From Chloroflexaceae bacterium (lineage in GTDB: Bacteria > Chloroflexota > Chloroflexia > Chloroflexales > Chloroflexaceae): 39,877 nucleotides of DNA. Location of the stretch: contig JANQID010000086.1 in NCBI GenBank assembly GCA_028282325.1, positions 1 to 39,877 of the forward strand, given 5' to 3'. Below the pieces are notes generated by a model that was not told the DNA's origin, ran no database searches, and saw nothing but the letters and a program-made list of their open reading frames with translations. The position numbers and the translations under genes were made by a program. This document shows, in pieces, positions 1,051-4,147 of the stretch (position 1 is the first letter of the stretch; each line of letters begins with the position of its first letter).

Positions 1051-2094
1051 TTACGCATCGTTCACCAGGCTTCGCACGACGTGATCCCAGGTGATATTGC
1101 GCACCAGCGGTTGGCCGGCCTGACCCAGGCGCGCCGCAAGAGCGGCGGCGGCCATCACCTGATCGATCCGCGTCGCAATGGCCGCCGGTTCCGCGGGCAC
1201 GACAAATCCGTTGACGCCATCGTTGACAAATTCGAGCACGCCGCCTGCATCATTGGTTGTAATCACGGGACGCGCCGCGCCGAACGCCTCGACCGTAGCA
1301 AAGCCGTAATCCTCATCCACCGGGGCGTAGTAGACCGCCCGCGCCCCAGCATACAGATCGATCAGCGCAGCATCATCTACAAAGCCTAGAAAGCGCGCCC
1401 GGTCGCCGAGTTTAAGCCGCGTCGCCAATTTTTCGAGCCGCTCGCGATCCGGCCCCGTACCGGCGAAGATCGCCCGCACCGGCGCGCGCGTGCGGGCCAG
1501 CGCCTCCAGCAGCAGATCGAGCCGTTTGGCGATATCCAGCCGCGCCGACGAGAGAATGTAGTTGCCGTAGGAGCCGGCGCGCAATCGCTCGGCGTAGCGG
1601 CTGGGCGGATAAAGCGGCGTACTGTCGAGGTTGTTGAAGCGTTGCAATCGCCGGCTGACATTGCGCGAGATCGTATAACGCGCCCGCGCTTCACTTAGTC
1701 CCCGCTGGTCCATTCGAAAAATCGCGTCGCGCACCGCCCGATGAGCGTCGATGTTGAGGAAATCGCTCAGCGGCGTGCCATACTGGTCGTAGGCCTGGCG
1801 ATGTTGATGCACCAGCCAGACGACTTTGTTGGGATGACGCACCAGGTAGGAGGGGAACTTGGTGCAAATCACTTGATCGACCGGCTCGTCGTTGACATGC
1901 GTTATGTCAAGCATACGCCACGCCAACGCCGTCTGGGTTACGCGCTCAATCGGGCGCCAGTTGAACGGCAGACTCACCACATCGACGGCGAAACCCCGTT
2001 CGCGCAATGCGTCGCGCAATCCATCAACCAGATACTCGGCGCCGCCGCGCACAAATGGCACCTGAGTCGCGCAGATCAGGATGCGTCGGGTCAT
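1051..2094 (-). CDS. Glycosyltransferase, GT4-like (GT-B fold)
   Basis: The protein (347 residues) resembles retaining GT-B glycosyltransferases of family 4, which transfer a sugar from an NDP-sugar to a growing glycan or lipid acceptor. The N-terminus MTRRILICATQVPFVRGGAE carries the glycine-rich acceptor loop. The donor half has the GTGPDRERLE loop and the E-x7-E motif in DEDYGFATVEAFGAARPV. The start was set at the ATG at 2094, because its ATGA overlaps the stop of the upstream glycosyltransferase; an in-frame ATG seven codons further upstream lies inside that gene. The overlap implies translational coupling. It is the last gene of a three-gene leftward operon. Donor and acceptor are unknown. 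Confidence 0.9.
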   Translation of the reverse strand: MTRRILICATQVPFVRGGAEYLVDGLRDALRERGFAVDVVSLPFNWRPIERVTQTALAWRMLDITHVNDEPVDQVICTKFPSYLVRHPNKVVWLVHQHRQAYDQYGTPLSDFLNIDAHRAVRDAIFRMDQRGLSEARARYTISRNVSRRLQRFNNLDSTPLYPPSRYAERLRAGSYGNYILSSARLDIAKRLDLLLEALARTRAPVRAIFAGTGPDRERLEKLATRLKLGDRARFLGFVDDAALIDLYAGARAVYYAPVDEDYGFATVEAFGAARPVITTNDAGGVLEFVNDGVNGFVVPAEPAAIATRIDQVMAAAALAARLGQAGQPLVRNITWDHVVRSLVNDA

Positions 2095-3365
2095 TGTTCG
2101 CGCCCCGTCTGGCATTCAGCACGCAGCGCAAATCCGGCTGTCCGACGTGCCACCGCGTCCCAGCGGCATGTTTCCAGCACATAGGCGCGCCCGCGTTCGC
2201 CAAGCGTTCGGCGCATATCGGCGCGCGCCAACAACAGATCGAGCGCGGCGGCGAACTCGCCAAACGAGCCAAACGTCAGCCCGCCCCCACTGCGCCGCAC
2301 GTGATCGGCAGTCACAGCGCAGTCGGCGTGAACCAGCGCAGGCGCGCCTTGCAGCCAGGCTTCCATCAACACGCGACTAAAGCTTTCATACACCGATGGC
2401 TGGACAAAAACGCTGGCGGCGGCGTAAGCGTCGTATTTGGCTTGCTCATCAACGAAGCCGAGATCCATCACCGGCGCAGGCGGCGTGGTGTGCGCCATTA
2501 ACGGCTCGTGTGCATAAACGCCGACATCGAGCAACGTGAAGCGCACATCGGGGCGACCCTGGCCCATCATCACGAGGCGGGCGACATCGCCGCGCCGGGC
2601 CCAATATTCGCGGAAATAGGCCAGGAGCAGCGGGATATTTTTCATCGAGTCGCGGCGGCCGGCATACACCAGCAGCGCCGGTTCGCGCCGATCTGCCGTC
2701 GCAGTCAGGCCATAGCGCTCGCGAAACGCCGATCCGCAGCCTCGCGGCGACAGGTCGATGCCTTCGCCCGCCACGCATACGCGCTCTTCGGTCAGCCCAT
2801 AGAGCCGCCGGGCGAGATCGGCCTCGGCGTGGCTATTGGCCAGCACACCTTGCACCTGGTTGAACATGTAGTGATAGGTGGAATAGCGCGCATATGGCTC
2901 ATCGTGAAGGCACGCCAGCAATGTGCTGCGTTCCGGCGCGATCAACGCGCCCCAGAAGGTAGTCGGAAAGGGATACGGCAGAAAGATAAACCGGGTGCGC
3001 TCGCGATCATCCAGTATTGCCGCGTACAACTCATCGCTGCCGAGCAACGAACCCAGCAGCCGCAACTCGTGTTCGGGAAAGCACTCAATCGGCGGCAGCA
3101 ATTCCGGGTGTTCGCGGAAAAAGAAGGGCACGCCGCGATCATCGGCGGGAGTAGGGCGAAAACGCCAGATCGGCACGCCGTCCAGCCCATCGGCGCCGGG
3201 CGGGTAGTAGGCATCGGCGCCGGGATGAAACGAATCGCGCCCGGTGCTGGCCCAGACCCGCACCGAAGCTCCGACGTCTCGCAACGCCTGAGCCAAGTCG
3301 CGCGCCTGGGTCTCCGCGCCGCCGCGTGTATCGGCGCCGTACCAGGGTGAAACAATGGTGATCAT
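2091..3365 (-). CDS. Glycosyltransferase, GT4-like (GT-B fold)
   Basis: A 424-residue GT-B glycosyltransferase. It begins MITIVSPWYGADTRGGAETQ, with the typical N-terminal glycine-rich loop. The donor-binding half carries VYAGRRDSMKNIPLLL and the E-x7-E motif in YESFSRVLMEAWLQGAP. It overlaps the gene before it by ATGA at 3362-3365 and the gene after it by ATGA at 2091-2094, so all three leftward genes should be translated as one coupled unit. Together with the downstream glycosyltransferase it probably builds part of an exopolysaccharide, cell-surface glycan or glycolipid. The specific sugar is not deducible. The family assignment is firm; the pathway is inference. Confidence 0.92.
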   Translation of the reverse strand: MITIVSPWYGADTRGGAETQARDLAQALRDVGASVRVWASTGRDSFHPGADAYYPPGADGLDGVPIWRFRPTPADDRGVPFFFREHPELLPPIECFPEHELRLLGSLLGSDELYAAILDDRERTRFIFLPYPFPTTFWGALIAPERSTLLACLHDEPYARYSTYHYMFNQVQGVLANSHAEADLARRLYGLTEERVCVAGEGIDLSPRGCGSAFRERYGLTATADRREPALLVYAGRRDSMKNIPLLLAYFREYWARRGDVARLVMMGQGRPDVRFTLLDVGVYAHEPLMAHTTPPAPVMDLGFVDEQAKYDAYAAASVFVQPSVYESFSRVLMEAWLQGAPALVHADCAVTADHVRRSGGGLTFGSFGEFAAALDLLLARADMRRTLGERGRAYVLETCRWDAVARRTAGFALRAECQTGREQ

Positions 3366-4147
3366 ACGTGATCGCTCGCCTCATTCGACCGTTGCGCCCG
3401 TAGACTCGCCAGCGTCGCCCGCGCCTCGGCGTCGGCGGCGAGCAAGGCCGTCACCGCAGCGATCAGCGCCGCGTTGTACGCATTCTGCTGCTCGACGATG
3501 GGGTTGATCAACCAGCGCAAATAGCGGCGCACCAGCTTGTTGAGCAAGGCCCAGCCCTTCTGGATCAGCGTTCGGCCTTCCAGCTTCCAATGTGCATTCA
3601 CCAACCGGCGCTCGACCAGAGGCGCAAGCAAGGGTCGCACCTCGATGTCGGCGAGCGCCGCCGGCGACTCAGACTTTCCCAGGCGTTCAACCAGCGCCTG
3701 CACGTCGTCAACCGACAGCAGATCATCGATTGCGCGGATGTCCGTATGGGGGCCAGACGAATCCGCCGAATCGCCATCGTCTGCATTCGATTGCAGCGCA
3801 GCGATCTGGGTGCGCACCTCGTTATGCGACTCGACCAGCAGACGCAACATGCGGGCAGCCACATCGTTGAACGAATTCTGTTGCTCAACAATCGGGTTGA
3901 TATACCAGCGCAAATACAAGCGCACCAGCCGGTTGAACAATGCCCATGCACGTTCAGGCAGATTCCGACCTTCGAGCGGCCAGTGCGCGCTAACCACGCG
4001 CGTAATCTCGATTTGCTCAAGGCTGCGTTGCAATTCTCGTTCGACAGCGTTCCGGGCCGGATCGGAGGCGCCGGTTATTGCCTGGCGGCGTTCGCGGATC
4101 GCCGAGCGCAACTGTTCCAGGACTGTTGCAACGTCCATTGAAGCCAT
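3362..4147 (-). CDS. Protein with two tandem copies of an INPIVEQQN-type module, coupled to glycosyltransferases
   Basis: The 261-residue protein contains an internal duplication. Residues ~51-95 (SAHWPLEGR..., ending WYINPIVEQQNSFND) and ~181-227 (NAHWKLEGR..., ending WLINPIVEQQNAYNA) align almost position for position, 131 residues apart, joined by an acidic low-complexity linker rich in D and S (~120-135). From memory, similar R-W-Y-x-x-P-x-V-E-Q-Q-N-x-x-N segments occur at the front of methyltransferases and glycosyltransferases in glycan clusters; here no catalytic domain follows. No signal peptide or membrane segment is visible. The ATG at 4147 was chosen because AGGAG lies 11 bases upstream; the frame stays open to 4336. 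Its stop overlaps the next glycosyltransferase start (ATGA). A scaffold or membrane-association role for the glycan enzymes is speculation. Confidence 0.8.
   Translation of the reverse strand: MASMDVATVLEQLRSAIRERRQAITGASDPARNAVERELQRSLEQIEITRVVSAHWPLEGRNLPERAWALFNRLVRLYLRWYINPIVEQQNSFNDVAARMLRLLVESHNEVRTQIAALQSNADDGDSADSSGPHTDIRAIDDLLSVDDVQALVERLGKSESPAALADIEVRPLLAPLVERRLVNAHWKLEGRTLIQKGWALLNKLVRRYLRWLINPIVEQQNAYNAALIAAVTALLAADAEARATLASLRAQRSNEASDHV

Follow-up and report, generated by a model that had tools for sequence, protein, structure and literature searches.

The window, which is the whole stretch of 39,877 nucleotides from a Chloroflexaceae bacterium that was analysed, contains a gene for a protein with two copies of a helical module (here called DBL), followed by the genes for two glycosyltransferases (GT1 and GT2). 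The features are:

3362..4147, minus strand: double-module protein DBL, 261 amino acids, without a known catalytic domain
3776..4138, minus strand: module copy 1 of DBL, about residues 4-124, with helices 6-25 and 33-49, a SAHWPLEG loop and a long predicted helix 63-124 containing WYINPIVEQQN
3365..3760, minus strand: module copy 2 of DBL, about residues 130-261, with N-terminal helices at about 146-179, a NAHWKLEG loop and a long predicted helix 194-259 containing WLINPIVEQQN
2091..3365, minus strand: GT1, a GT4-type glycosyltransferase of 424 amino acids, the start of which overlaps the stop of DBL (ATGA)
1051..2094, minus strand: GT2, a GT4-type glycosyltransferase of 347 amino acids, the start of which overlaps the stop of GT1 (ATGA)

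The ATGA joins from the module gene to the two glycosyltransferase genes, which were claimed in the first-pass annotation, are thus present at both the DBL/GT1 and the GT1/GT2 junctions. The GT1 stop at positions 2091-2093 overlaps the GT2 start at position 2094; an ATG at position 2115 is an earlier in-frame alternative, and the orthologues align from the start at 2094. The three genes are flanked by a GAF-domain gene upstream and a convergent PPK2 gene downstream, and their immediate neighbours in the window include no Wzm/Wzt-type transporter gene. Promoter sites were no more frequent at the locus than in shuffled sequences.

The INPIVEQQN motif starts at residues 83 and 214 of DBL, a spacing of 131 residues, and an alignment of the two halves spans 95 residues and scores 200, as compared to 61 for the best of 1000 shuffles, which establishes the tandem duplication proposed from the sequence. 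The copies of about 45 residues described at that stage correspond to the best conserved part, but the full repeat unit is longer, about 105-115 residues. In a core of 47 residues, 29 are identical between copies 1 and 2 while the nucleotides are only 67% identical, showing that the duplication is old and not an assembly artefact. Both copies have a three-helix layout with a W-Y/L-I-N-P-I-V-E-Q-Q-N core, and invariant residues occur in both. Their matches to an HMM of the module (E-values of 1.9e-43 and 7.7e-39) follow by construction, as the window copies are part of the HMM alignment. Searches of Pfam and NCBIfam with the 261 residues of DBL gave no catalytic or other domain, in line with the first-pass annotation, and the module itself matched no model in Pfam or NCBIfam and no credible chain in the PDB. 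The motif was not mentioned in the literature covered by a text search, and a plasmid search with DBL gave no match. In one locus (L089:4099-4979), DBL is divided into two overlapping reading frames of 211 and 82 amino acids, which is either a true split or a sequencing error.

The AlphaFold2 model of DBL, inferred with 23 orthologues, is all helical (mean pLDDT 80.6, pTM 0.67). In the model of each copy, a pair of short helices is followed by a loop bearing the AHW motif and then by a single helix, some 60 residues long, in which INPIVEQQN is located. The predicted model of a single-copy relative has the same layout, with helices at residues 7-24, 32-47 and 61-123 (mean pLDDT 77, pTM 0.46). 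The core of the long helix, its first 18-22 residues, is strongly amphipathic by computation, with a moment of 0.47-0.64 and a charge of +4 to +5, and this cationic amphipathic start would suit a membrane surface. The heptad periodicity expected of a coiled coil was not significant in DBL (p 0.10-0.23). A Foldseek search returned nothing at an E-value below 0.001, and the fold matches obtained with VIA-align were helical bundles without functional meaning.

Orthologues of DBL were identified in 70 of 80 relatives, representing four families of the Chloroflexales. GT2 is present in 74 of the 80 and GT1 in 47, the latter being a count at the search threshold that includes paralogues. A scan of 84,980 species yielded 76 loci, nearly all of which are titled Chloroflexota or Thermomicrobia, and these include Chloroflexus, Oscillochloris, Roseiflexus and Herpetosiphon. 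The double-copy layout is not confined to a single genome but is widespread in the photosynthetic Chloroflexales, where it occurs alongside glycosyltransferase genes. The copy 1 sequences all group with the single copies from the Chloroflexales in the module tree (support 94), suggesting that the duplication predates the divergence of most families and that the single-copy genomes have retained copy 1. Three assemblies titled Gracilibacteria, Thermoflexus and Singulisphaera (L067, L108 and L114) hold typical Chloroflexales versions of the operon and may thus be mislabelled or contaminated.

The module gene is followed at its 3' end by GT1 and then GT2, by GT2 only, or by GT1 only. An exact 4-bp overlap into a homologue of GT1 or GT2 was observed for 39 of the 86 module genes read (16 into GT1, 23 into GT2). 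Separate adjacent genes, followed by GT1, encode the two copies in two related genomes (L050/G041 and L052/L105), and in a few genomes DBL is separate from both GT1 and GT2. GT2 has been relocated alone in Herpetosiphon and Roseiflexus with no module adjoining it, and a second module gene was looked for next to these relocated genes and was absent. Outside the Chloroflexales, a single stand-alone module directly precedes the GT2 orthologue in ten loci (L115, L119-L121, L123, L125-L127, L130 and L151), while a fusion of the module to a class I methyltransferase is located directly before it in another four (L117, L129, L132 and L152). In L132, the fusion gene and the GT2 orthologue are preceded by an ABC-2 transporter gene and by a gene encoding a Wzt-type ATPase that has a Wzt_C domain. 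In another class (L212 and L216), a fusion of the same type overlaps a GT1 homologue. Single copies in front of methyltransferases, as stated in the first-pass annotation, are thus seen in these fusions. The module is also found at the C-terminal ends of glycosyltransferases of the GT2 family and GT4 type, as well as in single copies that stand alone, and its association is thus with glycosyltransferases more than with methyltransferases.

All ten of the loci read that encode GT1 paralogues carry the module. In five of these, including one in the same genome as the window (L133:9960-11600), it is part of the paralogue itself, about 45 residues past the end of the GT1 domain, and in the other five it is encoded by the gene just upstream of the paralogue. 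There are several module proteins in each paralogue cluster, and adjacency alone could therefore be due to chance; the repeated fusion of GT1 to the module is harder to explain in this way. The glycan cluster on contig C79 of the same genome contains two GT4-type glycosyltransferases with a C-terminal module (L133:5730-7514 and L133:9960-11600), one of which is the GT1 paralogue. Very large proteins of 1033-1319 amino acids with a GT1-like domain were observed in L134:6725-10528, L138:5546-9505 and L202:3292-6393, two of which also contain the module.

The presence of GT1 is associated with the state of copy 2. In the family to which the window belongs, GT1 was found in 0 of 15 single-copy genomes and in 15 of 22 double-copy genomes. 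Six double-copy genomes from three lineages lack GT1, and in all six that were read the N-terminal helices of copy 2 have decayed while copy 1 is kept. The median profile score for the N-terminal part of copy 2 is 58 in 13 GT1-bearing genomes versus 3.2 in the six GT1-less genomes (p 7e-5, with related genomes not being independent). The genomes without GT1 show just a mild weakening of the copy 2 core and no weakening of copy 1. A seventh GT1-less double-copy genome has intact helices; its assembly is 88% complete, and its GT1 may simply be absent from the assembly. The changes mapped on the GT2 tree number five for GT1 and six for the copy 2 state, and the three independent pairs of changes that are well supported all agree, too few to reach significance. 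In the Herpetosiphonaceae, the main exception, GT1 co-occurs with one module of the copy 1 type and no second stand-alone copy; the other clear module matches in this family are longer proteins, and the one that was read has the module at the C-terminus of a GT2-family enzyme. GT1 does hence not need copy 2 everywhere. A strict rule by which two copies are present if both GT1 and GT2 are present, and otherwise one, is refuted by the Herpetosiphonaceae, which have both enzymes and one copy, and by the six GT1-less genomes with two copies. Copies and enzymes thus show a strong tendency to go together, but not a fixed rule.

Glycan assembly enzymes are thought to act in membrane complexes, and to our knowledge non-enzymatic adaptors with sequence signatures have seldom been recognised in such systems. 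The module is conserved and unnamed, and DBL could plausibly act as an adaptor with two sites. Docking is the role that fits DBL best, and the coupling of GT1 to copy 2 lends it added support. We estimate a probability of roughly 0.6 that DBL is a non-enzymatic partner subunit of the two GT4-type glycosyltransferases, with both of which it probably forms a complex. Each copy would then represent one unit of a helical module that is elsewhere fused to, or encoded before, a glycosyltransferase or a glycan methyltransferase. We conclude that copy 2 is likely to serve GT1, which it may bind via its N-terminal helices, and copy 1 may serve GT2, as in the arrangement outside the Chloroflexales. The long cationic amphipathic helix with the conserved core motif could hold the enzymes together, probably at the membrane, so that the glycan might pass from one to the other. 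A more tentative extension, which we consider possible but somewhat doubtful, is that the module represents an unrecognised family of docking units, one per glycosyltransferase, and that a pair of module 1 with GT2 and a pair of module 2 with GT1 were combined in the ancestor of the Chloroflexales, where the fusion of the modules created a two-site adaptor and made the enzymes a single relay.

The frequent 4-bp overlaps directly before one glycosyltransferase, and the common occurrence of a single module with just one such enzyme, would also fit a chaperone-like or allosteric stabiliser that promotes the folding or activity of one or both glycosyltransferases without joining the two. The decay of the copy 2 helices after the loss of GT1 is equally well accounted for by a GT1-specific stabiliser. 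We nevertheless find this role unlikely; it leaves unexplained that two modules are joined in one polypeptide, that the core of copy 2 is conserved after the loss of GT1, and that the module is fused to methyltransferases and other glycosyltransferases. These fusions to several unrelated glycan enzymes, together with a core helix of high amphipathic moment and net charge, could instead indicate that the module serves mainly for membrane attachment, its cationic amphipathic helix bringing glycan enzymes to the inner leaflet without any specific partner. However, the near-invariant INPIVEQQN motif and the N-terminal helices exceed the sequence specificity required for lipid binding, and the loss of GT1 removes exactly the N-terminal helices of copy 2 rather than the amphipathic part. 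A stand-alone anchor would still have to bind something, and we regard pure membrane attachment as quite improbable.

In other classes, the place of DBL ahead of GT2 is taken by proteins that combine the module with a methyltransferase, once after Wzm/Wzt-type transporter genes, and DBL might thus be the remnant of a methyltransferase-type chain terminator that has lost its catalytic domain and has little function now. Such a remnant is difficult to reconcile with the conservation of DBL across four families, in 70 of 80 genomes and with invariant residues in both copies. Furthermore, stand-alone forms are placed on both sides of the methyltransferase-fusion group in the GT2 tree, which would fit either a loss or a gain of the methyltransferase. 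We consider it very improbable that DBL is a relic of this kind.

The docking reading resembles the role of WbdD in E. coli O9a and Klebsiella, which is the terminator and scaffold of ABC-transporter-dependent O-antigen assembly (PMC3482155, PMC11231755). The membrane recruitment of the mannosyltransferase WbdA depends on WbdD (PMC3482155), for which a role as a scaffold associated with the membrane has been described (PMC11231755). The recruitment of WbdA is performed by a non-catalytic helical region, and a similar role is here proposed for DBL from its genetic association with glycosyltransferases. WbdD has an amphipathic membrane helix, to which the computed amphipathic core helix of DBL may correspond, and the module elsewhere forms a fusion with a methyltransferase, encoded next to genes for glycosyltransferases and Wzm/Wzt. 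However, DBL contains the module twice, has no methyltransferase or kinase domain in its 261 residues according to Pfam and NCBIfam, and has no credible sequence match to any PDB chain. WbdD has a long coiled-coil ruler, and long helices are also predicted in DBL, with a heptad periodicity that does not reach significance (p 0.10-0.23). Without a catalytic domain, DBL is not a WbdD, though under the docking reading it would work like the recruiting part of WbdD. The class I methyltransferases of glycan clusters, with a methyltransferase domain as in PDB 3DLI and a helical N-terminal segment, share the module N-terminally in L117, L129, L132 and L152, whereas DBL has two modules and no such domain. 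The GT1-like and GT2-family glycosyltransferases with a C-terminal module have the same module covalently joined to the enzyme, while GT1 and the module protein of the window have separate, overlapping genes.

In this analysis, neither Pfam nor NCBIfam returned a model for the domain that the module represents. As the module can be traced across genomes, with losses that track the loss of one enzyme, it can be used to predict which glycosyltransferases cooperate, and DBL provides a small natural two-site protein with which to test how two such enzymes are held together. On a Pseudomonas plasmid (L217:4347-9013), a related methyltransferase is located between the gene for an ABC-transporter ATPase and an overlapping glycosyltransferase gene, an order that resembles that in L132 of the Chloroflexota.
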